DNA of 64,000 nt from Faecalibacterium sp. An121. Lineage in GTDB: Bacteria; Bacillota; Clostridia; Oscillospirales; Ruminococcaceae. The notes under the pieces are model-generated. The model did not search any database and was not told where the DNA came from. It was given only the letters and a program-made list of their open reading frames with translations. The position numbers and the translations under genes are program-made. The stretch is from assembly GCF_002160915.1 (NCBI RefSeq), contig NZ_NFLM01000002.1, forward strand, positions 124,001-188,000, read 5' to 3'. The number at the start of each line of letters is the position of its first letter. Position 1 is the first letter of the stretch. Shown here one piece after another: positions 36,470 through 49,268 of the stretch.

Positions 36470-37948
36470 TCACTCCAGGCCGATCTGCCGGGCGTATTCC
36501 TCCAGCAGTTCCCGCTCCAGGAAGGGCGTCTTGACCCCCATCCGGTCCCGGTAGGTCTCGTGGCCCTTCCCAATGACGGCGATCAGGTCGCCGGGCTGGG
36601 CGTGGTCCACCGCGTAGTGCAGCGCGTCCAGACGGTCGGGGATCTCCACGAACCGGGCGTCGGGGTTGCCCCGCAGCATCCCCTGACGGATGTCGGCCAG
36701 GATGTCCTCCACCTTTTCAAAGCGGTTGTTGTCCTCGGTCAGGATGGAGAAATCGGCCATCCGGGCACAGATCTCTCCCATGCCGTACCGCCGCAGTTTG
36801 GAGCGGTTGCCGCCGCAGCCAAACACCACCACCAGCCGGTGGGGGTCGTACGCACGCAGGGTGGTCAGCAGGCTCTCGGTGGACACCTCGTTGTGGGCGT
36901 AATCCAGCAGGACGGTGAACTTTTTGCTGATGGGCACCAGCTCCACCCGGCCCTTGACTACACAGCGGCCCAGACCGTCGTGGATGGCCTGGTCGGGCAG
37001 GTCCAGCACCTTGCTCACCGCCAGGGCCGCCAGGGCGTTGTAGACGCTGAACTGGCCCGGCATATTCACCTTGACGTCCATTTCATCCCGGCCGCTGACG
37101 TGGAATGTCACCCCCAAAAAGTCGTGGGTGCGCAGCAGCTGGCAGTCGCTGGCCCGGTAGTCGGCCCGGCTGTCCATCCCGTAGGTCACCAGGGCGCAGG
37201 TGTGGCCCTCCAGCAGCGCCTGCGTGTTGGGGTCGTCGATGTTCACCACGCCCACATCGCACCGCCGGAACAGCTGGCCTTTCCAGCTGCGGTACTCCTC
37301 AAAGCTGGCGTGCTCCCCCGGGCCGATGTGGTCGGGAGAGAGGTTAGTGAACACGCCCACCTGGTAATGGATACCCGCCACCCGGTCCATCATCAGCCCC
37401 TGGCTGGATACCTCCATCACCACCGTGTCGCAGCCCGCGTCCACAAAGGTGCGGAAGTATCTTTGCAGCTCATAGCTCTCGGGGGTGGTGTTGGCGGTCT
37501 CCTCGTGACGGCCCATATAATAGACCCCGTTGGTGCCGATCATCCCCACCTTGCGGCCCGCCGCCTCCAGCACGCTGCGGATCATGTGGGCGGTGGTGGT
37601 CTTGCCCTTGGTGCCGGTCACGCCTATCATGGTCATCCGGCGGGCAGGGCTGCCGAACAGGTTGGCGCTCATCAGGGCCATGGCCCGGCGGCTGTTGTCC
37701 ACCTTCAGCACCGTCACCCCCGCAAGGCCGCTCAGGTCAATGTCGTGCTGGATGACGACGGCCGCCGCTCCTTTGGCTGCGCAGTCGGCGGCAAAGTCGT
37801 GGCTGTCCCGCTGGGTGCCCACGATGCAAACGAACAATACCCCCGGGGCTGCCTTCCGGCTGTCATAGACGATGTCGGTGATGTCGGTATCCAGGCTGCC
37901 CTGCACCAGCGTACAGGCCACCCCCTGGGTCAACGCGGATAGCTTCAT
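36470..37948 (-). CDS. murE: UDP-MurNAc-dipeptide ligase adding the third residue (MurE)
   Basis: This 492-residue Mur ligase adds the diamino acid to UDP-MurNAc-L-Ala-D-Glu. The ATP loop is GVTGTKGKTTT (109-119). SYELQRYF and MEVSSQGL carry the lysine-region and substrate motifs. The specificity loop reads DNNR at 406-409; meso-DAP enzymes have DNPR, so DAP use is likely although Pro is replaced. It is the last gene of the dcw cluster, 6 bases after ftsQ, instead of its usual place before murF. GAGGAG precedes the ATG. Confidence 0.93.
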   Translation of the reverse strand: MKLSALTQGVACTLVQGSLDTDITDIVYDSRKAAPGVLFVCIVGTQRDSHDFAADCAAKGAAAVVIQHDIDLSGLAGVTVLKVDNSRRAMALMSANLFGSPARRMTMIGVTGTKGKTTTAHMIRSVLEAAGRKVGMIGTNGVYYMGRHEETANTTPESYELQRYFRTFVDAGCDTVVMEVSSQGLMMDRVAGIHYQVGVFTNLSPDHIGPGEHASFEEYRSWKGQLFRRCDVGVVNIDDPNTQALLEGHTCALVTYGMDSRADYRASDCQLLRTHDFLGVTFHVSGRDEMDVKVNMPGQFSVYNALAALAVSKVLDLPDQAIHDGLGRCVVKGRVELVPISKKFTVLLDYAHNEVSTESLLTTLRAYDPHRLVVVFGCGGNRSKLRRYGMGEICARMADFSILTEDNNRFEKVEDILADIRQGMLRGNPDARFVEIPDRLDALHYAVDHAQPGDLIAVIGKGHETYRDRMGVKTPFLERELLEEYARQIGLE

Positions 37949-37954
37949 ACTGTG

Positions 37955-39349
37955 TCACTCCTCATTGGTCGTCCCCTCCAGGGGGGCGTCTGTGCCTTCT
38001 TGTCCGGCCTCCTGCCCGGCCGTGTCCGGCTGGCCGTCCTGCGGCTGGCCGGACGCTGCCTCGGCGCCATCCTCCGGCGCTGCGGCTTCCGTCTGTTCCG
38101 GCGGCAGATAGCCCGAGGGCAGGTCGGGCGTGCCCTGGGCAAAGATGGCCTGCAAGGTGCCGTCGGTCCGCACATGGCTGCAATCCAGCTGGCCGGTGTC
38201 GGTCTCGGCGCAGCCCTTGCCCTCTTTGTTCAGCAGCATATATTCGGCGTAGTCCATCTTGTAGTCCAGCTCGTTCAGGGTGCCCAGCAGCACGCTGATC
38301 CGGTCCTGATAGAGGAAGGCCAGCTGTTCCACATCGGCGTATTCGATCCGGGTCACGTCCTCCAGCAGGCCGTGCTCCTCCAGCGCCCCCAGCAGGGTCT
38401 CCAGGGCCCTCATGCGGCTGTCCGCCGTCTGGCCCGTCTGGCTGTCCGCCGCCTGACTGGAGGCCTCTCCCTCCGGCGGCACGGCATAGGCCAGCTGGTC
38501 GCCGGGGGTCACGCTCACCGGGTCCCCGCCGTACAGCACCGGCAGCCCTTCGGGCTGCACCGGCTCCGCCGCCAGGATCTTGAGCCCCGCCGACAGGCTG
38601 ATCCATCCGGTGGGGGTCTGCATGGCATAGGCAGGGGCTGCGGGGGTCACCTGCACCACCACCGTACTGGGGTATACCCGCTGCACCTGGATCTGTTCCA
38701 GCAGGGGAAACTCTTTTTCCAGCTGGGCGGCCTTGGCCTCGGGGTCAAAGCTGAAGATGTTCTCCTCCACCTGCACCCCCAAAGCATCCAGGATCTGGCT
38801 GCTGGTGTAGGGGCCCGCCTGGGCGAGGTCCGCCCCGTCGGGACCGGCCACCCGTATGGCGTTGATCTTGAACAGCATGGTCATGGTCAGGTAGATGCCC
38901 GCCCCCGCCACGCACAGCACCAGAAAAGCCGCGGTCAGCCGCCGCATCATCCGGCGGCGGCGCAGCATCTTGCGGGTCACCCGGCGGCGTCTGCGGGCCT
39001 CCTGGCGGGGCGGAGCGGGCCGGGCCGGCCGCGCGGCCTGGGGACGTCTGTCCCGGGCGGGACGGGCCGTCTGGGGCCTGCGGCTGTCGCCGCGGGGCGG
39101 CCGGGCCCGTCCCCCTGTGGGGAACTGCACCGTATTGTCCCGGCGGGGCGGATGCTCATAAAAGAAGCTGTCCTCCACCCGCTGGCCTGGGCTGCGGCTT
39201 TCGAACCGTATCCCTTCGGTATATTGTCCCGGCGTGCGATACGGATCGTTATTCACCGGCCGGTTGGGGGCCGGGCGTCTTCCCTGCCCCTGGGTGCGGC
39301 GCGGGACGGCCTGCCCGGCCGGCCTGCGTCTGCGCTGCTTTGCGGGCAT
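37955..39349 (-). CDS. ftsQ: Cell division protein FtsQ/DivIB with long tails
   Basis: This 464-residue protein keeps the FtsQ plan: cytoplasmic tail, one membrane segment (about 139-160), POTRA domain (INAIRVAGPDG ... QIQVQRVYPSTVVVQVTPAAPAYA) and a beta domain. It assembles with FtsL and FtsB/DivIC in the divisome. The cytoplasmic tail of about 138 residues is extremely Arg/Pro-rich. The extracellular end has about 60 acidic Gly/Gln/Pro residues, and a Ser/Gln-rich insert lies near residue 285. The start at 39349 follows AAAGGAGGGG. Typical relatives have 250-300 residues. Confidence 0.83.
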   Translation of the reverse strand: MPAKQRRRRPAGQAVPRRTQGQGRRPAPNRPVNNDPYRTPGQYTEGIRFESRSPGQRVEDSFFYEHPPRRDNTVQFPTGGRARPPRGDSRRPQTARPARDRRPQAARPARPAPPRQEARRRRRVTRKMLRRRRMMRRLTAAFLVLCVAGAGIYLTMTMLFKINAIRVAGPDGADLAQAGPYTSSQILDALGVQVEENIFSFDPEAKAAQLEKEFPLLEQIQVQRVYPSTVVVQVTPAAPAYAMQTPTGWISLSAGLKILAAEPVQPEGLPVLYGGDPVSVTPGDQLAYAVPPEGEASSQAADSQTGQTADSRMRALETLLGALEEHGLLEDVTRIEYADVEQLAFLYQDRISVLLGTLNELDYKMDYAEYMLLNKEGKGCAETDTGQLDCSHVRTDGTLQAIFAQGTPDLPSGYLPPEQTEAAAPEDGAEAASGQPQDGQPDTAGQEAGQEGTDAPLEGTTNEE

Positions 39350-39385
39350 ACCGCCCCCCTCCTTTCTCACAAAGTATGCGGGGCC

Positions 39386-40513
39386 TTACGGCTCCCGCAG
39401 CAGGTCCTGCAGCCGCCGGACGATCTGGTCCAGGCTGTCGTCCACCGACAGGGTGCGGGCATTGCGGCCCATCCGGGCCAGTCTGCCCTCCTCGGCCAGC
39501 AGCTGCCGTACCTCGGCCACCAGCTTTTCGCCGGTCAGATCCTTTTCTTCGATGACCACCGCCGCGTCCACCTTGGCCAGCTCCAGCGCGTTGTAATACT
39601 GGTGGTTCTCGGCCACGTTGGGACTGGGGATCAGCACGGAAGCCCGGCCTGCGGCCTCCAGTTCGGCCAGGGTCAGCGCGCCGGCCCGGCTGATCACCAG
39701 GTCTGCCGCCGCCAGCAGCTCGGGCATATTGTCGATGTATTCCCGCACCACCAGGTTTTCGCCCCGGGCAAAGCCCTTCTGCTTTTCCAGGTCCCGGAAC
39801 AGCTGCACGCCGTACTGGCCGGTGGCGTGCAGATGCAGGATGTCCCTGTGCTCCTTCTGCTCCCAGGCGCACAGGTCGGCCACCACCTCATTGATCCGCC
39901 TGGCCCCCAGGCTGCCCCCAAAGGACAGGATGACGGTGCGGTCCCCGGCGTGCAGCTTGGCGCGGGCTTCGGCCCGGCGGGCCGCCCATCCAAAGACCTC
40001 GGGGCGGACAGGGTTGCCCACCACCACCGTCTTGCCGGGGGCGCCCAGACGGTCCGCCCCGGCCTGCACGGCGGCAAAGACCACATCCACCTCGGGGGCC
40101 AGCAGCTTGTTGGTCACCCCGGGGAAGGCGTTCTGTTCGTGGATCGCCGTCTTGATGCCGTGTTTGGCGGCGGCCCGTACCACCGGGCCCGACACATACC
40201 CGCCGCAGCCGATCACCAGATCGGGCTGCACCTCTTTGAGGATGGCCCTGCAGCGGGGGCCTGAGCGGGCCAGGTTCCACACCGTGACCAGGTTGCGGCG
40301 CAGGTTCTCCAGGGAAGGCCGCCGCTGGAAACCGGTCACCTCGATGTGGTGGAAGGGATAGCCCGCCTGGGTCACCAGACGGTATTCCATCCCCTCTTGC
40401 CGGCCCGCAAAATGGATCTCGGCGGCGGGGTCCGCCCTCCGCAGGGCCCCCGCGATGGCCAGAGCCGGGTTGATATGGCCGGCCGTGCCGCCGGCTGCGA
40501 TCAGTACACGCAT
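39386..40513 (-). CDS. murG: Lipid II synthase (GlcNAc transferase) MurG
   Basis: This 375-residue GT28 enzyme adds GlcNAc to lipid I at the inner membrane face. GGTAGHINPALAIA is the first glycine-rich loop, IGCGGYVSGPVV and IHEQNAFPGVTNK the lipid-binding side, and SFGGSLGARRINE and ISRAGALTLAELEAAG the UDP-GlcNAc site. All are intact. This matters because its substrate, lipid I, needs an active MraY that the cluster does not seem to encode. AGGAGG lies before the ATG. Confidence 0.96.
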   Translation of the reverse strand: MRVLIAAGGTAGHINPALAIAGALRRADPAAEIHFAGRQEGMEYRLVTQAGYPFHHIEVTGFQRRPSLENLRRNLVTVWNLARSGPRCRAILKEVQPDLVIGCGGYVSGPVVRAAAKHGIKTAIHEQNAFPGVTNKLLAPEVDVVFAAVQAGADRLGAPGKTVVVGNPVRPEVFGWAARRAEARAKLHAGDRTVILSFGGSLGARRINEVVADLCAWEQKEHRDILHLHATGQYGVQLFRDLEKQKGFARGENLVVREYIDNMPELLAAADLVISRAGALTLAELEAAGRASVLIPSPNVAENHQYYNALELAKVDAAVVIEEKDLTGEKLVAEVRQLLAEEGRLARMGRNARTLSVDDSLDQIVRRLQDLLREP

Positions 40514-40543
40514 ATGGATGATTCCTCCTGTCTGCCGGGCTGT

Positions 40544-41869
40544 TTACAGCTGTGCCCGGTGCTGTGCGCCGGAGCGGCGCAGATTACCCAGTACGATGGG
40601 CGGGCGGGCCGTGGTCTGCCGCACCTGCTCCATCCGGGCGGCCCGGCGTGCCTCGGCGGCCTGGGCGCCGTTGCGCCCGATGTGGATCATGACCCCCATC
40701 TCAGCCATCAAAAGCAGCAGGCTGGTGCCGCCCGAGGAAAAGAAGGGCAGGCTGATGCCGGTATTGGGCAGGGTGTTGGTGACGACGGCCACATTGCAGA
40801 ACACCTGCCAGCCCACCTGGGCCATGATGCCCACCCCCACCAGGGTGCTGAACCGGTCGGACGCCTGAAAGGCGATCAGGAACCCCTGCACCAGCAGCAG
40901 CACGAACAGCAGGATGACCACCACGGCCCCCACAAAGCCCAGTTCCTCGCACACCACGCTGAAGATGAAGTCGTTGGTGCACTCGGGCAGCCAGAGCTGC
41001 TTTTCCACGCTGTTGCCCAGGCCCAGGCCGGTCAGACCGCCCGAGCCGATGGCGTACAGGCTCTGAAGGGTCTGATCGGTCATCTTGTTGAGGTCCTGGG
41101 TCCAGCCGTCCAGACGGTCCTGCAGGTAGGGGATGGAGTCGATGTGGGAGAGGATGGTCTCCAGCAGCAGCACGGCGGCCGCCGCGCCCCCGTAGGTGAT
41201 GATGCCGCCGCTGCCGTTCAGCAGCAGGATGCTGCCCACGATGGCGCACATCAGCACGATGCCCGACATATGGGGTTCCAGCGCCAGCAGCACCACCACC
41301 GGCAGCAAAGGCGCCAGGGGAACGGCCAGCTCCCGCACCACCTTCTGGAACAGCCACTGGCCAAAGTTCCCCACAGTCCGCCTGGCCGAAGGATCTCCCT
41401 GGGGCCTGGGATGGGGGGTGCGGCTGGCCAGGTGCGCGGTGAGCAGGATCATCTCAAACTTGACCAGCTCGGACACCTGCAGCGTGGGCAGGCCCTTGAA
41501 ATTCAGCCACCGGCGGCAGCCGTTCAGGGGTTCGCAGAACAGCACCACGATCAGCAGCAGGATGCTGACCAGATACCCCGCCCATACGAATTTGCGGATG
41601 AACCGCAAGTCGAAATACGAAAACAGGAACATCACCCCCATGCCGATCAGGGCATAGAGGGCCTGCGATTTGATGTAGTGATAGCTGTCCCCCATGCGGA
41701 GGTAGCCCGTGGTATAGCTGGCGCTGAACAGCATCACCAGCCCGAAGATCACGATCAGGATCAGGGTCGCCAGCCAGCTGATCAGCAGCGGGGTCCACGG
41801 CCCGGGGTCCCGCTGAAAGACCACCACCGGCCCCCGCGGGTCGGGGTGTCTTCTGTGTGCAACCGCCAT
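40544..41869 (-). CDS. ftsW: Peptidoglycan glycosyltransferase FtsW/SpoVE
   Basis: This 441-residue SEDS protein polymerises lipid II during division together with the class B PBP of the same cluster. Ten membrane segments can be traced. LNFKGLPTLQVSELVKFEMIL holds the family's RW-F and substrate-path motifs, GSGGLTGLGLGNS and PECTNDFIFSVVCEELGFVG form the central loop with the conserved Asp, and NTGISLPFFSSGGTS is the PROSITE-type signature near the end. The Arg/Gln-rich C-terminal tail of about 35 residues is cytoplasmic. Confidence 0.95.
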   Translation of the reverse strand: MAVAHRRHPDPRGPVVVFQRDPGPWTPLLISWLATLILIVIFGLVMLFSASYTTGYLRMGDSYHYIKSQALYALIGMGVMFLFSYFDLRFIRKFVWAGYLVSILLLIVVLFCEPLNGCRRWLNFKGLPTLQVSELVKFEMILLTAHLASRTPHPRPQGDPSARRTVGNFGQWLFQKVVRELAVPLAPLLPVVVLLALEPHMSGIVLMCAIVGSILLLNGSGGIITYGGAAAAVLLLETILSHIDSIPYLQDRLDGWTQDLNKMTDQTLQSLYAIGSGGLTGLGLGNSVEKQLWLPECTNDFIFSVVCEELGFVGAVVVILLFVLLLVQGFLIAFQASDRFSTLVGVGIMAQVGWQVFCNVAVVTNTLPNTGISLPFFSSGGTSLLLLMAEMGVMIHIGRNGAQAAEARRAARMEQVRQTTARPPIVLGNLRRSGAQHRAQL

Positions 41870-41896
41870 AGAAAACCTGCCTTTCTCTCTGCGCGT

Positions 41897-42919
41897 TCAA
41901 AACTGCGCCGTACGCAAAGCGGCCAGGGTGCCTGCCAGCGCCAGAGCGCAAAAGACATAGAAAGCGGCCACCGGGCCGCCCTTTCGGCGCAGCCAGGCGT
42001 CCAGGCTGCCCGCCTTGAACAGGGGCCGGCCCCGCATCCGGCGCCACAGCCCCTGCAGCACCGCCGCCAGCCCCTCCGCCCAGAAGGGCAGGCCCAAAGC
42101 CAGGGCGATATCCGCCCGTCCGATGGACAGGGGGATCCCCCCCACCGCCCCGGCCAGGAACAGGCAGCCCACCGCCCCGGGCATCAGCCGGGCGGGGTAA
42201 AAGTTCCACAGCAGGAACGCCATCAGCGCCCCCGCCAGGGCCGCAGGCAGCACCGCCAGCGGGAAAAATCCCAGGATGGTCTCGGCCCCCATCAGGCCCA
42301 GCATGGCCACAAAGGCGGCCCCCGCCACAGCCCCGTCGGTGGGGCCGGCCAGCCGGGCCGATTCGGCCAGGGCCACCAGCATCGCCGCCCACAGGGGCGC
42401 CGCAGCGGCCCCCAGCTCGACGTAGCCCGCCAGGGGCACCGTCAGGCCGGTGGGCATATATTCGCCGGCCCACAGAGCGGCCACCGTCACAGCGGCGGCA
42501 GCCCCCTCCAAAGCCAGCCGGGGCCCTGTCCGCAGCCCCAGTACCTGCCGGGGCCGCAGCCGGACCAGATCGTCCGCAAGGCCCGCCGCGCCCAGCAGGA
42601 AGCCGGCGCTCAGCCCCAGCATCAGACGGCCGGTCAGGCCGCCGCCCAGCAGTTCAGGCTGCACTAGGCAGACCACCACCCAGCCCACGCCCACCGCGGC
42701 CAGGGTGCCGATGATGAAGCACAGCCCGCCCATGGTGGGCAGGCCCCGGGGCGGCTGGGGCTGTGGTTCCTCCTTGTCCTTGCTTTGCGGCTGGCCGCCG
42801 GGGCCAGTCTCCTTCTCGGGCGGGACGAGGGCCCGCAGCAGCGGGACCAGCAGGTTCCCGACCGCGGTCGTCAGCGCAAACCCCAGCACCGACGCCACGA
42901 TCAAGGCAAAACGTATCAT
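41897..42919 (-). CDS. MraY-like membrane protein lacking most catalytic motifs
   Basis: This 340-residue, roughly ten-helix protein sits where mraY belongs and aligns with it. PRGLPTMGG (58-65) and ADDLVRLRPRQVLGL (115-129) keep the family pattern, including the Asp pair 116-117. The other catalytic sites are gone. The second Asp of NxxNxxDGxDG is lost (GPTDGAVAG, 192-200). The magnesium Asp of FMGDxGS is Ala249 (MPGAVGC). The HHH of the last loop reads DAW (307-309). A charged insert with Gln/Pro repeats follows residue 35. It has no frameshift and a good ribosome site, so it looks maintained. It may be a pseudoenzyme scaffold for the wall complex. Confidence 0.8.
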   Translation of the reverse strand: MIRFALIVASVLGFALTTAVGNLLVPLLRALVPPEKETGPGGQPQSKDKEEPQPQPPRGLPTMGGLCFIIGTLAAVGVGWVVVCLVQPELLGGGLTGRLMLGLSAGFLLGAAGLADDLVRLRPRQVLGLRTGPRLALEGAAAAVTVAALWAGEYMPTGLTVPLAGYVELGAAAAPLWAAMLVALAESARLAGPTDGAVAGAAFVAMLGLMGAETILGFFPLAVLPAALAGALMAFLLWNFYPARLMPGAVGCLFLAGAVGGIPLSIGRADIALALGLPFWAEGLAAVLQGLWRRMRGRPLFKAGSLDAWLRRKGGPVAAFYVFCALALAGTLAALRTAQF

Positions 42920-42944
42920 GTCAGGTTATCTCCGATCGGTCGAT

Positions 42945-44357
42945 TTAGTCTCCGTTCTCTTTCGGACCGTCCTGGGCGGCGGCTGCGGCGTCCTGCAGCT
43001 CCTTCATCCGCTCCACGGCGTTTTCCAGGGCCATGGCGCGGCTCCCTTTGAACAGCACCGCATCCCCCGGCTGGGCCGCCTTGGCCAAAAAGCCCGCGAT
43101 CTCCTCGTAGTTGTTGGCGTGGATGGTGCGGACCCCCTTGGCGGCCGCCACCGTGGCGGTGCGGCGGGCCAGTTCGCCGTAGGTCATCAGCAGGTCGATG
43201 TTGCTCCGGGCCACCAGGCGGCCCAGCTCCTCATGGGCGGCACGGGCCTGATCCCCCAGCTCCAGCATATCGGCCAGCACCGCGAAGCGCCGCTTGCAGG
43301 GGTACTCCTTGAACATCTCCAGCGCCGCCTGCATACTGTTGGGGTTGGCGTTGTAGCAGTCCTGGATGATCCGCACCCCGTGGCTGTCCATCATCTGCTG
43401 GCGCATACCGGTCTGGCGGAACTCCTTCATCAGGCGGATGGCCTCCTTGGGGGTCAGCCCCAGCTGGCTGGCGGCGCAGTAGGCCGCCAGGGCGTTGGCC
43501 ACATTGTGGCGGCCCAGAGCGGGGATGTGCACCATAAAGCAGCCGTTCTCGGCGTCATCCAGCAAAAAGCTCATCCCGTCGTTTTCCTGCCGGATGGCGG
43601 AGGCATACACGTCGGCCTCCTGGCTGGTCATGCTGTACCACACCGGGCGCACATGGGCGGGCAGTTCCGCCTTGCGCAGGAACGGGTCATCGTAGTTGAG
43701 GACCAGCGGCGCGCCCTCGGGCATCCCGTCGCAGATCTCCAGCTTGGCCTTGCAGATGTTCTCCTGGCTGCCCAGGTTGCCGATGTGGGACAGGCCGATG
43801 CAGGTGATGACCCCCACATCGGGCCGGGCGCAGCGGGACAGCCGGCTGATCTCCCCTGCATGGTTCATCCCCATCTCGATCACCGCATATTGGGTGCTGC
43901 CGTCGATCTGGAACAGGGTGCGGGGCAGGCCCAGCTCGTTGTTCTGGTTGCCCTCGGTCTTGATGGTTTGGCCCAGCCCGCTGAGGGCGACGGCGCAGAA
44001 TTCCTTGGTGGTGGTCTTGCCCACACTGCCGGTCACGCCCACCACTTTGGGGGCGAACTGGGCGCGGTAGTTGGCGCCCATCTGCATCATGGCCTGGTAA
44101 CTGTCGGGACAGAGGATGGTCTTTTCTTCGGGCACCCCCTCCACCGGGTGGTTCAGCACCACCCAGGCGGCGCCGGCCTCCAGGGCCCGGGCCGCAAAGT
44201 CATGCCCGTCAAAGTGCTCTCCAGGGAAAGCCACAAAGACGCACCCGGAGATCACCTCCCGGCTGTCGGTGGTCACCAGGGTGATGTCCTGCCCGTCGGC
44301 AAGGCGCTGGGCAGGGACCAGCCCTGCCAGAAGGGTCTTTGCTGCGATGTGTTCCAT
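42945..44357 (-). CDS. murF: UDP-MurNAc-tripeptide:D-Ala-D-Ala ligase MurF
   Basis: This 470-residue Mur ligase adds D-Ala-D-Ala, completing the pentapeptide precursor. VVGVTGSVGKTTTKEF is the ATP loop, EGNQNNELGLP and IEMGMNHAGEI the family signatures, and QDCYNANPNSMQAAL the C-terminal domain motif. All catalytic elements are present. It has its own promoter in the 111-base gap after the PBP gene and is followed by the mraY-like gene after 25 bases. Confidence 0.96.
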   Translation of the reverse strand: MEHIAAKTLLAGLVPAQRLADGQDITLVTTDSREVISGCVFVAFPGEHFDGHDFAARALEAGAAWVVLNHPVEGVPEEKTILCPDSYQAMMQMGANYRAQFAPKVVGVTGSVGKTTTKEFCAVALSGLGQTIKTEGNQNNELGLPRTLFQIDGSTQYAVIEMGMNHAGEISRLSRCARPDVGVITCIGLSHIGNLGSQENICKAKLEICDGMPEGAPLVLNYDDPFLRKAELPAHVRPVWYSMTSQEADVYASAIRQENDGMSFLLDDAENGCFMVHIPALGRHNVANALAAYCAASQLGLTPKEAIRLMKEFRQTGMRQQMMDSHGVRIIQDCYNANPNSMQAALEMFKEYPCKRRFAVLADMLELGDQARAAHEELGRLVARSNIDLLMTYGELARRTATVAAAKGVRTIHANNYEEIAGFLAKAAQPGDAVLFKGSRAMALENAVERMKELQDAAAAAQDGPKENGD

Positions 44358-44404
44358 TCGTTCCTATCCCCTTTCATAATGGTTCTTACAGGATTGCCGC
44401 TTTT

Positions 44405-44434
44405 ATTATAAAGCCCTGCGGCAGGCTCTGGCAA
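44405..44434 (-). promoter_or_regulatory. Internal dcw promoter before murF
   Basis: On the minus strand TTGCCA (plus 44429-44434), 18 bases, TATAAT (plus 44405-44410). GCAGGC...GCCTGC just upstream forms a hairpin that overlaps the -35, so read-through from the PBP gene and new starts may compete. Confidence 0.6.
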
Positions 44435-44468
44435 GCCGGACGGCCTGCTTTTCGCCCATCCTTCACTT

Positions 44469-46958
44469 TTAGCCGCAGGTGATGGTGACGATGGTGCCCA
44501 GCTGCACCCGGTCGCCGGGGGCGGCGCTCTGGCTCTGTACCAGGCCCTGGCTGTCCCCTTCGATGGTGCAGTTCAGTCCGGCGGCCAGCAGCATCTGCCG
44601 GGCAAAGTCGGCGCTCTTGCCGGTCAGGTCGGGCACCTCGGTGGTCTGTCCGCCGTAGCCCTCCGTGTACAGATAGACGGTGGTACCGCTGGGCACGGTG
44701 GTGCCCGCCGTGGGATACTGCCAGGTGACCGGGGCGGCGGTGTTGTCGGTGGTGCTCTCCACCAGATGGTGGGCCAGGCCCCGGATGTTCAGGGACACCT
44801 GGGCGTTGCTCCACTCGGTGCCCACCAGATTGGGCACCTTGACGGTGGTGCCGCTGCGGTCGATGCCGTCGGTGGCGATGCCCAGATAGGGGGCGATCTC
44901 ACTGATGATGTTGCCCACCACCGGCGCGGCCAGCACCGAGGAATAGTCGCTGTTGACGTTGTTGGGGTCGTCCAGCATCACATAGACCAGGATCTCCGGG
45001 TCGTCTGCCGGCAGCACCGCCACGAAGGAGGCCGCCTTTTTGTAGTCGCCGTCGGCGCGGCGGTCCATGTTCAGCAGCTCGGAGGTGCCCGACTTGCCCC
45101 CGATGCGGTAGCCGGCCACATAGGCGCGGTAGCCGCCGCTCTGGGTGGTGCCGTCCCCCACTTCGTACTCCATGATCTGGCGGATGGTCTCGCTGGCCGT
45201 CTCGCTGATCACCTGACGGCGGACATTGGCCCCGATCTGCTGCACCACGTTGCCGTTGGCGTCCACGATCTGGTCCACCACATGGGGGGTCACCAGGTAT
45301 CCCCCGTTGACCGACGCCGCAATAGCGGTGCACACCTGCAGGGGGGTGACCGCCATGGACTGGCCGAAGGCCGAGGACGCCAGCTCCACCTCGCCCATGT
45401 TCTGGTCGGTGTAGTACTGCATATAGGACGTCTCGTTGGGCAGGTCCACGCCGGTGCGCTCGGTGAAGCCGAAGGCCTGGAAATAGTCATAGAAGGTCTG
45501 CGCACCCAGGCGCTGGCCCAGCTGGATGAAATAGATGTTGCAGCTGTTGCGCAAAGCGTCGGCCAGGTTCTGCATCCCGTGGCTGTGGCGTCCGGCGCAG
45601 TGGTAGGTCTGTTTGGCCACGGCATAGGCGCCGGAGCAGTTGAGGGTGGTATTGTAAGAGGCTTTGCCCGAGTCCAGGCCCATGGCGGCGGTGATGACCT
45701 TGAACACGCTGCCGGGGTAGTAGAGCTCGGTGATGGTCTTGTTTTTCCACATGATGTCCCGGAAGTAGCCCGAGTAGTCCGCCTCGGGGTCCAGGATGCG
45801 GTTGCCCTCCTCGTCGGTGACGTAGCTGCCGTCCTCGTTTTGGAGGTAGATGCCGTACAGTTCGGGTTCCGCCCGCACCAGTTCTTCCAGGTAGGCCTGG
45901 TTGGCGGTGTAATTGTTGGGGTCGTTGGGGTCGAAGTCCGGCTTGGAGGCCATGGCCAGGATCCCGCCGGTGTTCACGTCCATGACGATGGCGCAGCCCC
46001 GGTTCTCCACCGTGTTGGCCGCCACCGCCTCCACCAGGTATTTCTCCACCACTTCCTGGATGGTGCTGTCCAGCGTCAGCACCAGACTGTTGCCGTCTTT
46101 GGCGTCGTAGGTGACGGCGCTGCTGTCCGCGATGGCGTTGCCCCGGGCGTTGCGGATGGTGATGGTGCGTCCGTCGGTACCCGACAGCACATCGTCGTAG
46201 GACTTCTCCAGCCCATAGGCCCCGTCGCCGTCCGCGTTGGTGAAGCCCAGCACCGCCGCCGCGAACGCCCCATAGGGGTAGTTGCGCTGGTAGGTGCGGG
46301 AGGAGGACACCGACAGCCGGCCGGTGCCCTGGGCCGCATTGCGGGTGCTGACGTATTCCTCGATGGATTCCTTCACCGCGTTGTTGACCTTTTCGGCCAG
46401 CACCTGGTAGGAGGAATCGATGCTGCTGAGGGCCGCATACACTTTCTCATACTGCTGGGTGTACTCCGCCGAGGCCGTGTTGACGGAATCCAGGCTGACG
46501 CCGTCCCCCGACAGCAGCCGCAGGGTGATCTCCCGGCTGATCTCGGCGCAGGCCGCGGCGTCCAGGGTGCGGACGGTGCTCTCGGTCTCCTGGCCGGCTT
46601 CGTCGGTGCCGGTGAGGGTCTGGCTGTTGTACAGCGCGCTGGAATAGCTGGGGTCGCACCAGATGTCCCACACCACACTGGTGGAGGCCAGCACCTTGCC
46701 GGTGGCGTCGTAGATCTCCCCGCGGGTGGCCTGGATGGTGCTGTCCAGCAGCTGCTGGTCGCTGGCGTACCGGCTGAACATCTCGCCGTTGCGGATCTGT
46801 ATGTTGTACAGGCTGCCCACCACGATGGCGGTCGCCAGCGCCACCGCCCCGATCGAGACGGCCAGCCCCACCTTCCGGGTCCGGGAAGGGATGGGCGCAT
46901 AATCTGGGTCGCGGCGGAGGGAGCTGCCTTTCCGCCTGCGGTCGTTTGGTTGGTTCAT
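44469..46958 (-). CDS. Class B penicillin-binding protein with PASTA domains (SpoVD/FtsI type)
   Basis: This 829-residue transpeptidase has a cytoplasmic start, one membrane segment (about 31-51) and a dimerisation/pedestal domain. The transpeptidase follows with SVFK (417-420), SCN (472-474) and KSG (622-624). Two PASTA domains (VPNLVGTEWSNAQVSL and VPDLTGKSADFARQML) end the protein. It cross-links septal peptidoglycan as partner of the FtsW protein of the same cluster. PASTA repeats suggest a SpoVD or PBP2x-type protein. The start at 46958 follows CAGGAG. Confidence 0.92.
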   Translation of the reverse strand: MNQPNDRRRKGSSLRRDPDYAPIPSRTRKVGLAVSIGAVALATAIVVGSLYNIQIRNGEMFSRYASDQQLLDSTIQATRGEIYDATGKVLASTSVVWDIWCDPSYSSALYNSQTLTGTDEAGQETESTVRTLDAAACAEISREITLRLLSGDGVSLDSVNTASAEYTQQYEKVYAALSSIDSSYQVLAEKVNNAVKESIEEYVSTRNAAQGTGRLSVSSSRTYQRNYPYGAFAAAVLGFTNADGDGAYGLEKSYDDVLSGTDGRTITIRNARGNAIADSSAVTYDAKDGNSLVLTLDSTIQEVVEKYLVEAVAANTVENRGCAIVMDVNTGGILAMASKPDFDPNDPNNYTANQAYLEELVRAEPELYGIYLQNEDGSYVTDEEGNRILDPEADYSGYFRDIMWKNKTITELYYPGSVFKVITAAMGLDSGKASYNTTLNCSGAYAVAKQTYHCAGRHSHGMQNLADALRNSCNIYFIQLGQRLGAQTFYDYFQAFGFTERTGVDLPNETSYMQYYTDQNMGEVELASSAFGQSMAVTPLQVCTAIAASVNGGYLVTPHVVDQIVDANGNVVQQIGANVRRQVISETASETIRQIMEYEVGDGTTQSGGYRAYVAGYRIGGKSGTSELLNMDRRADGDYKKAASFVAVLPADDPEILVYVMLDDPNNVNSDYSSVLAAPVVGNIISEIAPYLGIATDGIDRSGTTVKVPNLVGTEWSNAQVSLNIRGLAHHLVESTTDNTAAPVTWQYPTAGTTVPSGTTVYLYTEGYGGQTTEVPDLTGKSADFARQMLLAAGLNCTIEGDSQGLVQSQSAAPGDRVQLGTIVTITCG

Positions 46959-47013
46959 CTGCTTCTCCTGACGGCGGCTCCCGGGCCCCAATGCCCAAAG
47001 GCCGCCTGAAACC

Positions 47014-47075
47014 GAAAAAGCGTGCGCAGCGGCACGCTTCCCCGGGTGATATGCCTCCCGGTCGCCCTGGGAGGC
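47014..47075 (-). terminator. Two hairpins between ftsL and the PBP gene
   Basis: On the minus strand GCCTCCC/GGGAGGC (plus 47053-47075) follows the ftsL stop. It is succeeded by AAGCGTGC/GCACGCTT (plus 47018-47039) with a U-rich tail. The second looks like an intrinsic terminator or attenuator in the middle of the dcw cluster. Confidence 0.6.
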
Positions 47076-47084
47076 TCTGCTTTT

Positions 47085-47591
47085 TTACTGTGCGTCTGCC
47101 GGCGGCTCGATGGTGCGCAGCAGGCTGGACACCCCTGCCTGCAGGGTATCGGTCCACTTCTCCACGGCACTCTCGCGGCGGGTCAGAACGCTCTGGTCGT
47201 CCAGGCGGATGTAGGTGATCTGACTGTCGTCGATCTTCATCAGGCCCAGCCGGCCCGCCGCGTCCTCGACGCGGTTGATGCTGGACTGGACGTTGATGGT
47301 GGTGGTGTAGTAATCATTCTGGCTCTGGGCCGAGACAAGGGCGGCCTTGGCCTGCCGGATGTCCCCGCTCAACTCTACGATGCGGGCTTCGCTGAACAGC
47401 AGCGCCACCGACAGCCCGGCCAGAAGCCCCAGCGCAAGGATCTGCACGCCGTGCTGCATCATGGCCCGAAGGGGTGAAAGACTGCGCTTGCCCCCCTGTT
47501 CGACCCGCAGATCTACCCGCCGGCCGGGCTGGGGCGCCGGGCGGCGGACCGTCTGTGCACTGTAATTGTAATCATATGCAGGCTGACCCAT
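47085..47591 (-). CDS. ftsL: FtsL-like division protein
   Basis: This 168-residue bitopic protein has a basic cytoplasmic tail (starting MGQPAYDYNY), one membrane segment at about 48-66 and an extracellular coiled coil (SEARIVELSGDIRQAKAALV) ending in a RLGLMKIDD turn typical of FtsL/DivIC. Its sequence is weakly conserved, and the call rests on this plan and on its place between rsmH and the PBP gene. It should bridge FtsQ/DivIB and the FtsW-PBP pair. Confidence 0.8.
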   Translation of the reverse strand: MGQPAYDYNYSAQTVRRPAPQPGRRVDLRVEQGGKRSLSPLRAMMQHGVQILALGLLAGLSVALLFSEARIVELSGDIRQAKAALVSAQSQNDYYTTTINVQSSINRVEDAAGRLGLMKIDDSQITYIRLDDQSVLTRRESAVEKWTDTLQAGVSSLLRTIEPPADAQ

Positions 47592-47636
47592 GATGTATCC
47601 TCTTCCCTTCTGCGCTCGCCCCTGTGGGGCGGCGCC

Positions 47637-48605
47637 TTACAATTTTTCCAAAACACGCAAATGGGCCGAACGGCTGCGCCGGTTGCCGGCCAGCTCGTCG
47701 GGCTTCGCTTCGATGGGTTTGCGGGTGATCAATTTCGCCTTGGCCCTGCCGCCGCAGACACAGACAGGGAACTCAGGCGGGCAGGTGCAGGCGGTCGCCC
47801 AGCGGCGGAACTTGTTCTTCACCAGCCTGTCCTCCAAAGAGTGGAAGGTGATGACGCACAGCCTCCCGCCCGGGGCCAGCGCCCCGAAGATGGCCTCCAG
47901 TCCGTCATCCAGCGCGTCCAGCTCGTGGTTGACCGCTATGCGCAGCGCCTGAAAGCTGCGCCGGGCCGGGTTCTTGTCCTTGCGGCGCACCGCAGGGGGC
48001 ACAGCCGACGCCACCAGCCCCGCCAGCTGGAGGGTGGTCTGGATGGGGGCCTGGGCACGGGCCTCCTCGATGCGGCCCGCGATCTGCCAGGCATAGGGTT
48101 CCTCGCCGTAATCCCGCAGGATGCGGGCCAGCTCCTCCCGGGGGAGGGTGTTCACCAGGTCGGCCGCGCTGGTGCCTTCCTGGCTCATCCGCATATCCAG
48201 CGGCGCGTCGGCCCGGTAGGAGAACCCGCGCTCCGCGTCGTCCAGCTGGTGGCTGGATACGCCCAGATCCAGCAGGGCGCCGTCGATCTGAGGGATGCCC
48301 AGATCAGCCAGAGCCTGCGCCGCATAGCGGAAATTGATCTGCACCACCGTGGCGGGCAGCCCCGCCAGACGCTGGCGTGCGGTCTGCACCGCGTCGGGGT
48401 CCTGGTCCAGAGCCACCAGCCTGCCTCCGGCCGCTGCGTCCAGCCGGCTGGCGATGGCCCGGGAATGGCCCGCACCCCCCGCCGTGCCGTCCAGATAGAT
48501 GCCGCCGGGCCGGATGGCCAGCCCTTCCAGGCATTCCTCCAGCAGCACCGGCACATGGGCAAACGAGGCCGGGTCAAAAGCCTGCTGTTCCTGTTCCGTG
48601 GCCAT
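47637..48605 (-). CDS. rsmH: 16S rRNA (cytosine-1402-N4)-methyltransferase
   Basis: This 322-residue SAM enzyme methylates C1402 of 16S rRNA. HVPVLLEECLEGL is the family start, YLDGTAGGAGHSRAI the SAM loop, LLDLGVSSHQLDDAERGFSY the active-site motif, and VITFHSLEDRLVK and NRRSRSAHLRVLE the C-terminal signature. The start at 48605 follows a purine-rich GAAAGGGGG site. The frame is open further up but reads over the end of mraZ. It is the second gene of the dcw cluster. Confidence 0.96.
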   Translation of the reverse strand: MATEQEQQAFDPASFAHVPVLLEECLEGLAIRPGGIYLDGTAGGAGHSRAIASRLDAAAGGRLVALDQDPDAVQTARQRLAGLPATVVQINFRYAAQALADLGIPQIDGALLDLGVSSHQLDDAERGFSYRADAPLDMRMSQEGTSAADLVNTLPREELARILRDYGEEPYAWQIAGRIEEARAQAPIQTTLQLAGLVASAVPPAVRRKDKNPARRSFQALRIAVNHELDALDDGLEAIFGALAPGGRLCVITFHSLEDRLVKNKFRRWATACTCPPEFPVCVCGGRAKAKLITRKPIEAKPDELAGNRRSRSAHLRVLEKL

Positions 48606-48655
48606 TGGCCTCGCCCCCTTTCGGTCCAAAATCAAAACTACAGCCCGCCCCGGGA

Positions 48656-49075
48656 TCAGATGTGCAGCTCCCGCAGGCGGGCGGCGCGCTGTTCGTTGGT
48701 GATGGCGGCGCGGCGGGCATCCCACCGGGCTGCATCCCAGATCTCCACATGGCTGCGGTTGCCGATCACCGCCGCCGTCCTTTCCAGCCCTGCATACTGC
48801 CGCAGGCTGGCGGGCAGCAGGATGCGGCCCTGCTTGTCCGGCGCCACCTCGCAGGCGGTACTGAACAAGTCCCCCGTGATCTCCCAGCTGGTCACCAGCT
48901 CGTCGGCGCCCAGGCGCTGGGAGATGCGTTCCACTTCCTCCATGGGCAGGGCGAACAGGCACTGGTCCAGCCACTCCATCACCACAAAGCTCTCGCCCAT
49001 CCCTTCCCGGAACCTGGCCGGGAAGTTCAGGCGGCCTTTGGCGTCGATGGTGCAGTCATACCGTCCAAAGAACAC
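48656..49075 (-). CDS. mraZ: Transcriptional regulator MraZ
   Basis: This 139-residue protein has two AbrB-like SpoVT domains: FFGRYDCTIDAKGRLNFPARF at the start and FSTACEVAPDKQGRILLPASL in the second half. MraZ binds direct repeats in its own promoter and represses the dcw cluster. I place the start at the GTG (49073-49075), since MraZ proteins begin with this motif and an AAGGGGGG site lies before it. The longer frame would read back through the promoter. Confidence 0.92.
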   Translation of the reverse strand: MFFGRYDCTIDAKGRLNFPARFREGMGESFVVMEWLDQCLFALPMEEVERISQRLGADELVTSWEITGDLFSTACEVAPDKQGRILLPASLRQYAGLERTAAVIGNRSHVEIWDAARWDARRAAITNEQRAARLRELHI

Positions 49076-49113
49076 TGCCGCCGCCCCCCTTTTTGTGGAG
49101 CAGGATGGGGACA

Positions 49114-49143
49114 GCTCCCCACTTCTCCCTACTTTACTCCACT
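49114..49143 (-). promoter_or_regulatory. MraZ-box-like direct repeats
   Basis: On the minus strand AGTGGAGTAA, AGTAGGGAGA and AGTGGGGAGC follow each other with a 10-base period between the -10 and mraZ. MraZ is known to bind such TGGG-type repeats, so this is the likely autorepression site. Confidence 0.7.
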
Positions 49144-49154
49144 GATACGACTTT

Positions 49155-49183
49155 ATTGTAACAAAACGGGTCACCGATTGCAA
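49155..49183 (-). promoter_or_regulatory. dcw cluster promoter
   Basis: On the minus strand TTGCAA (plus 49178-49183), 17 bases, TACAAT (plus 49155-49160). Confidence 0.75.
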
Positions 49184-49268
49184 TAGGTTTCGCCCGACTT
49201 TTTCAGTCAATTTCTTTCACAGTGTATAAAATGTACGACTCATTTTTCCCCGGAGCGCATTCTGCGCA

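Follow-up and report, generated by a model that had tools for sequence, protein, structure and literature searches.

The window analysed here, a stretch of 64,000 nucleotides from Faecalibacterium sp. An121 (contig NZ_NFLM01000002.1, positions 124,001 to 188,000), contains a division and cell wall (dcw) gene cluster in which the place of mraY is taken by a gene encoding a degenerate MraY homologue, hereafter protein A (Table 1). Protein A scores 51.5 bits against Pfam PF00953 (Glycos_transf_4; cut-off 27) and is thus a member of the superfamily; against the MraY equivalog profile TIGR00445 it scores 61.1 bits, below the cut-off of 192.05, with residues 55-316 on profile positions 30-295 of 321. 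Structural alignment of the predicted protein to MraY entries spans residues 1 to 340 and identifies the MraY fold, in keeping with an earlier note, made from the sequence alone, that described a full-length MraY homologue in the dcw cluster. Protein A shares with MraY (TIGR00445; PDB 4J72, 5JNQ and 8G01) its length, fold, place between murF and ftsW, many structural glycines and prolines and the DD pair; it differs in lacking the magnesium-binding Asp, the Asn pair of the uridine pocket and the HHH motif, and lies far under the family cut-off.

D117, D118 and D265 of Aquifex MraY form a triad critical for activity, in which D265 coordinates magnesium, as stated in the available part of PMC6606608. 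Protein A lacks this triad as well as the HHH motif: the Asp of FMGDxGS is Ala249 and the HHH loop reads DAW, as the earlier note had it. The note erred on the DGxDG motif, whose second Asp it gave as lost; it is the first Asp (D193 equivalent) that is replaced, by Gly192, and the second (D196 equivalent) is kept as Asp195. The surrounding N..N.TDG.DG loop reads E-S-A-R-L-A-G-P-T-D-G. An alignment error at these motifs, a possibility that the note itself had raised, is ruled out because three alignment sets agree and the structural alignments cover residues 1-340. Judged from its sequence and predicted structure, protein A has the MraY fold over its full length but no catalytic Asp triad, and the losses strongly suggest that it is catalytically inactive.

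Table 1. Protein A, its motifs and neighbouring dcw genes in the window; residue equivalences are from alignment with Aquifex MraY
Feature	Position	Strand	Remarks
Protein A, degenerate MraY homologue at the mraY place of the dcw cluster	41897..42919	-	340 aa; ATG at 42919, stop at 41897; between murF and ftsW
GGAG, likely ribosome-binding site of A	42930..42933	-	10 nt before ATG, read in the sequence
Asp116-Asp117, kept DD pair	42569..42574	-	Equivalent to D117-D118; alignment
Gly192-Pro-Thr-Asp195	42335..42346	-	Replaces D-G-x-D of the uridine-binding loop; alignment
Ala249	42173..42175	-	Replaces the Mg-binding Asp (D265 equivalent); alignment
Asp307-Ala308-Trp309	41993..42001	-	Replaces HHH of loop E; alignment
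Residues 217-239 of A, about transmembrane helix 7	42203..42271	-	Most conserved segment of degenerate copies; mean identity 0.88, 10 representatives
murF, upstream neighbour of A	42945..44357	-	Passes family cut-off, TIGR01143 406 bits
ftsW, downstream neighbour of A	40544..41869	-	PF01098 247.6 bits; TIGR02614 261.3 bits, below cut-off 337.5
murG	39386..40513	-	Passes family cut-off, TIGR01133 268.3 bits

Protein A occurs in 30 of the 31 genomes of the genus, eight single-contig genomes among them, which rules out a sequencing or strain artefact. It is full length in 27 genomes and frameshifted in G011. A contig end truncates it in G019 and in G023, and the search of G018 (89% complete) gave no A and no murF either. 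The Asp triad is intact in none of 26 aligned A sequences (27 loci minus G011; G003, G019 and G023 are outside the count), compared with 39 of 39 canonical MraYs. The D265 position is A, S, C, R, K or M in the 24 sequences of the main group, and the D118 equivalent is kept in all 26. Five residues that differ from canonical MraY are fixed in the main group (24/24), namely R134, E138, E186, R189 and W309; the columns of the first four are K, Q, N and N in canonical MraY.

Among the A sequences, only that of G009 (L090:4596-5600) has Asp at the D265 position. This near-canonical MraY reads ED for DD, its first Asp being Glu, and HAE for HHH; it is the sole member of the genus near the mraY cut-off (191.9 bits, or 193.8 with frame neighbours). 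Protein B, described below, is also present in this genome, which may show an early stage of the change. The most degenerate copies (L067, L082 and L085, from G006, G022 and G026) have a loop E shorter by 6 residues, seen as an alignment gap, in open frames.

The An121 genome (99.32% complete) encodes a second MraY-like protein, protein B (319 aa), on another contig (G000:C23; L001:1255-2214). It is the sole other PF00953 protein of this genome; a PF00953 search at E <= 1 gave A and B alone, so that an overlooked canonical MraY is ruled out. Protein B carries the motifs LDD, NVVNCTDGVDGL, LMGDAGS and PLHDHARKRLGWSDEQVVIR, and its intact catalytic residues agree with the expectation of the earlier note that an active MraY must exist elsewhere. 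Its best NCBIfam match is mraY (87.3 bits, compared with 52.6 for archaeal MraY and 43.8 for wecA), and the PDB sequences and folds closest to it are MraYs (model pLDDT, the predicted local distance difference test score, 86.1). Because its TIGR00445 score lies below the cut-off, B is called MraY-like here rather than a member of the family, and its substrate is one that we infer. The Asp triad is intact in 30 of 30 B sequences from Faecalibacterium (30 genus genomes; the cut copy of G019 was left out) and in 73 of 73 others, as are the equivalents of D193, D196, N187 and N190.

Relatives of B outside the genus were taken from the best 80 of 565 matches of a contig scan, of which 66 were loci other than the 14 of the genus Faecalibacterium; these 66 and seven more make up the 73 other sequences. 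Among these best 80 of 565, the records carrying B include Lachnospiraceae bacterium, Butyrivibrio, Lachnoclostridium, Eisenbergiella, Anaerosporobacter and Oscillospiraceae bacterium. In a sample of the class, B was found at E <= 1e-50 in 20 of 393 genomes. A quick tree places B in a single clade (support by the Shimodaira-Hasegawa-like approximate likelihood ratio test, SH-aLRT, 100), apart from canonical MraY (89) and TagO-like sequences (100), with a program warning that the long branches of B and of the TagO-like sequences meet. In the same tree Faecalibacterium B clusters with five Lachnospiraceae sequences (SH-aLRT 98), a grouping that suggests a horizontal gain of B by Faecalibacterium.

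Genomes with B alone bear most directly on its function. In another genus of the same family (g32), B is the only PF00953 protein above the cut-off in 3 of 3 genomes, each 99% complete; the remaining matches score <15 bits and lie in frames of 941-949 aa, one of which was read and presumably encodes a YfhO-type membrane protein. The dcw order in g32 is ftsI, murE, murF, ftsW, murG, with no mraY in the gap between murF and ftsW (3/3). In a different family (f61), mraY is likewise missing between murF and ftsW in all four genomes read, and B, encoded elsewhere in the genome in the three whose B region was read, is the sole MraY-profile match. The genes murE, murF, murG and ftsW are present in all seven of these g32 and f61 genomes. 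Since B is the only MraY relative detected and mraY is missing at the dcw place in 7 of 7 genomes, B very probably makes lipid I.

A further 46 carriers outside Faecalibacterium, g32 and G244 were classified with the MraY profile (30 picked among the 66 named loci, plus all 16 from the class sample): B is accompanied by a canonical MraY in 13 (that of G340 in two pieces) and by a degenerate MraY in 6, and it stands alone in 27. The class sample supplied 15 of the B-only genomes, with a completeness of 96% or more and B-only status by the MraY profile; for the other 12, PF00953 too gave no second protein above the cut-off. The stretches around murF in eight further B-only genomes (L323, L324, L325, L328, L329, L332, L336 and L337) showed no recognisable ftsW or murG. 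The idea that in other groups B sits within the dcw cluster as its MraY was dropped: no such placement was seen in the B stretches read, namely those of g32, G244, three f61 genomes and 67 loci (L177-L243) with flanks of up to 1500 bases; among these 67, L204 alone has an ftsI-like neighbour of B, and a weak one. G244, from yet another family (f24), has both a canonical dcw MraY (L157:7302-8321) and B (L163:5419-6384), the latter adjoining what we take to be trmD- and rimM-like frames; such a genome is possibly an intermediate before loss.

The degenerate state is also found in other lineages. Outside the genus, 28 of 30 relatives have an mraY above the cut-off; the exceptions are G031 and G047, with a completeness of 84-85%. 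G047 (85% complete) has a single MraY-profile match (G047:C42:39153-39956; 68.9 bits, far under the cut-off), which may be either a further odd case or an assembly gap. Six degenerate MraYs were identified elsewhere, in G345, G346, G349, G350, G351 (Ca. Faecivivens) and G355 (Ruminococcus RUG13226), all B-carrying genomes; G345, titled Faecalibacterium sp. UBA1762, places outside the genus clade in the dcw protein tree. Each of the six is a full-length copy (329-351 aa) flanked by murF and ftsW; none has an intact triad, and the D118 equivalent is kept in 6 of 6. On a species tree for 33 genomes, built from a concatenation of five dcw proteins, a quick tree with SH-aLRT support only, the degenerate state needs 4 changes, or 3 if G009 is scored as degenerate. 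Rebuilding the tree without two probably wrong Mur ligases (murE of G006, 95 bits; murF of G307, 58 bits) gave the same count; in both trees G292 is represented by 31% of columns and G351 by a partial ftsW and no murG.

Selection on protein A was estimated from the ratio of nonsynonymous to synonymous substitution rates (dN/dS; method of Nei and Gojobori, NG86) in four subclades of the genus (45, 15, 6 and 6 pairs for A). The medians for A are 0.243, 0.312, 0.273 and 0.107, the last in the subclade of G006, G022, G026 and G003. The corresponding medians are 0.219, 0.250, 0.267 and 0.059 for ftsW, which is closest to A in three of the four subclades, 0.147, 0.091, 0.067 and 0.027 for murG, 0.196, 0.214, 0.088 and 0.096 for murF, and 0.145, 0.125, 0.043 and 0.016 for B. 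Protein A is under purifying selection, far from neutral, and less constrained than the four comparison genes; the claim of the earlier note that an intact gene is kept is thereby borne out.

The constraint is unevenly distributed along the protein. Column identities were compared between 10 A representatives and 27 canonical MraYs, the A set being closer kin, with overall means of 0.60 and 0.46, respectively. Mean identity is nonetheless lower in A than in canonical MraY in loop A (0.24 vs 0.64), loop C (0.48 vs 0.90), loop D (0.69 vs 0.84) and loop E (0.57 vs 0.75), and slightly lower in transmembrane helix (TM) 9 (0.51 vs 0.55); it is higher in TM1 (0.75 vs 0.31), TM2 (0.74 vs 0.41), TM6 (0.66 vs 0.30) and TM7 (0.88 vs 0.42). 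Protein A thus keeps mostly its membrane core, and its cytoplasmic substrate face is relaxed.

The explanation that we favour, with a probability of about three in four, is that catalysis has moved to B and that A is kept as a membrane pseudoenzyme, most likely a scaffold or carrier-lipid-binding partner. Faecalibacterium would then use, and probably acquired, a second and very divergent phospho-N-acetylmuramoyl-pentapeptide transferase. B, encoded away from the dcw cluster, would make lipid I; release of A from catalysis by B would make the loss of catalytic residues tolerable, and A could have lost the magnesium-binding Asp, the uridine-pocket residues and the loop-E histidines while purifying selection kept it as a pseudoenzyme. 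Most likely it would retain the non-catalytic share of MraY function, as a membrane dimer to which the carrier lipid, the MurF-MurG-FtsW side of lipid II synthesis, or both are bound, with B as a possible further partner. According to passages of PMC9046198, undecaprenyl phosphate (C55-P) is bound by MraY where the two subunits of its dimer meet, far from the catalytic Asps, and an excerpt of PMC4929429 lists MreB, MurG and Mur ligases among the reported or proposed partners of MraY. Given these contacts and its conserved membrane core, A could retain lipid binding, dimerisation and the holding of MurF, MurG and FtsW. The suggestion in the earlier note of a scaffold or lipid-carrier binder fits the conservation pattern, although the role itself is one that we infer, with moderate confidence.

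A special case of this explanation, compatible with it but unlikely in so specific a form, is that A acts as a regulatory subunit, pairing with B in a mixed dimer in which it positions or controls B. The dimerisation of MraY with carrier lipid at the interface (PMC9046198) would suit such an arrangement, as does the finding that the degenerate copies lie in B-carrying genomes. However, this co-occurrence is expected anyway because some active enzyme is needed, the degenerate copies were sought mainly in B-carriers, and B stands without A in g32 and f61.

Several observations weigh against the favoured explanation. In each of the four subclades A has a higher median dN/dS than ftsW, murG, murF and B. 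The copy of G011, a 79% complete metagenome-assembled genome, is split over two frames (L071:3971-5007), through either an assembly error or a real loss. At 73% GC an open frame says little by itself and is weak proof of function: in a neutral simulation at 0.25 changes per site, 328 of 1000 sequences remained without a stop. The absence of mraY between murF and ftsW in g32 and f61 means that a retained role is not general, and the score of B below the mraY cut-off leaves its assignment less direct. In addition, the MraY gene tree joins five of the six degenerate copies from elsewhere to A (SH-aLRT 86), which may be an effect of long branches, and approximately unbiased (AU) tests reject neither the grouping of all A together (p 0.488) nor that of all degenerate copies minus G009 (p 0.485). 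The gene tree and these tests do not separate one origin of the degenerate state from several, so that degenerate MraY may have been shared by transfer.

The elevated dN/dS, the loss at the dcw place in g32 and f61, the frameshift in G011 and the easy survival of open frames would all suit a slowly decaying leftover that persists only inside an essential operon after B took over. This account is nevertheless improbable. The median dN/dS of A is 0.11-0.31, with a maximum pair of 0.508, at a median dS of 0.12-0.64; three of the four genomes of the genus without a full-length A have it cut or split, and the fourth, G018, lacks a detectable murF too. The five residues fixed in the main group differ from canonical MraY, and the same degenerate state recurs in other lineages.

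It is less probable still that B is a transferase of N-acetylglucosamine 1-phosphate or another sugar 1-phosphate (TagO/WecA type) and that lipid I comes from A or an unrelated enzyme. This view draws on the separate clade of B, apart from both canonical MraY and TagO-like sequences, and on its score below the mraY cut-off; however, B is the sole superfamily member above the cut-off in g32 and the sole MraY-profile match in 27 of 46 carriers, the seven genomes read from g32 and f61 encode murE, murF, murG and ftsW, and B matches mraY with 87.3 bits as against 43.8 for wecA. About as improbable is that A has remained a transferase but has altered its metal site or its substrate, a view akin to the changed mechanism suggested in the earlier note: its predicted fold and DD pair are kept and charged R134, E138, E186 and R189 are fixed, but the magnesium-Asp position drifts, the positions of H324 and H325 are variable, loops A and C show lower conservation than those of canonical MraY despite closer kinship, a paralogue with intact motifs is present, and the fixed residues are mostly missing from the six degenerate copies elsewhere (E186 and R189 0/6, E138 1/6, W309 2/6, R134 4/6).

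A wider claim, that MraY has a second, non-catalytic function separable from catalysis, as a membrane platform for carrier lipid and Mur/Fts proteins, and that lineages with B, in Faecalibacterium and its relatives, have repeatedly reduced the dcw MraY to a pseudoenzyme, is tentative, and we lean slightly against it. Residues shared by the degenerate copies may have a simpler source. In TM9 (residues 278-283; window 42071-42088), Pro 278 is present in 24 of 24 main-group A sequences and 5 of 6 other degenerate copies; canonical sequences have I, V, L or M at this position (39 sequences), and TagO-like sequences have Pro (11/11). Gly 283 is present in all 26 A sequences, all six other degenerate copies and all 103 B sequences. 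The presence of Pro 278 in TagO-like sequences and of Gly 283 in B makes it possible that both are a fold default, and they may reflect this rather than a shared new function. TagO/WecA-type proteins (PF00953) thus resemble most degenerate copies in superfamily and in this Pro, and differ in that TagO-like sequences keep the Asp triad (10/11) and form their own clade.

Precedents for moves of this kind may be seen in two systems. MglA of Kitasatospora and Streptomyces substitutes for MurG, as shown experimentally according to the abstract of PMC8092295; there too a distant paralogue can replace a dcw-encoded enzyme of lipid intermediates, but the step is that of MurG rather than MraY, and in Faecalibacterium the old copy is kept without catalytic residues. 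In Clostridioides difficile, dcw-encoded peptidoglycan synthases have been repurposed (abstract of PMC10693644); the dcw place is kept and the vegetative job has moved to another protein, as proposed here, but those synthases work in sporulation, whereas A has lost its catalytic residues. Neither abstract mentions a retained dead copy. Among the open-licence papers listed, no earlier report was found of a catalytically dead dcw MraY or of an alternative MraY in these bacteria. The picture that emerges is one in which a dead MraY extends through nearly the whole genus and B seems to have displaced it; other lineages have arrived at the same state, and still others have lost the dcw mraY.

MraY is generally regarded as a universal, essential enzyme and drug target. 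Faecalibacterium, a very common human gut genus, seems to rely on a different enzyme for lipid I, and its division cluster still contains a dead MraY. It may thus offer a natural separation of MraY catalysis from any structural role, which is hard to obtain in model bacteria because mraY is essential there. Annotation by gene order would name the wrong protein MraY. MraY or its pathway is described as a target in the available parts of PMC6606608 and PMC9046198, and in the former F262 and H325 of MraY contact nucleoside inhibitors. In all 103 B sequences F262 is replaced by L or M and H325 by D; B may therefore respond differently to MraY-directed compounds.

The remaining features of the locus concern the gene start and the neighbours of A. 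The good ribosome site described in the earlier note holds in so far as GGAG precedes the ATG; the stricter pattern AGGAGG-N7-ATG with one mismatch has 13 sites, against a mean of 18.5 by chance, and none at A. MurG and MurF look functional, as the note had said, since both pass their family cut-offs. In the window (36470-49210), murE lies at the dcw end after ftsQ, and the interval between murG and ftsQ is without murA. Relatives such as L154 and L157 have murE ahead of murF, and the later part of their cluster contains frames that we take to be murA- and ftsZ-like.
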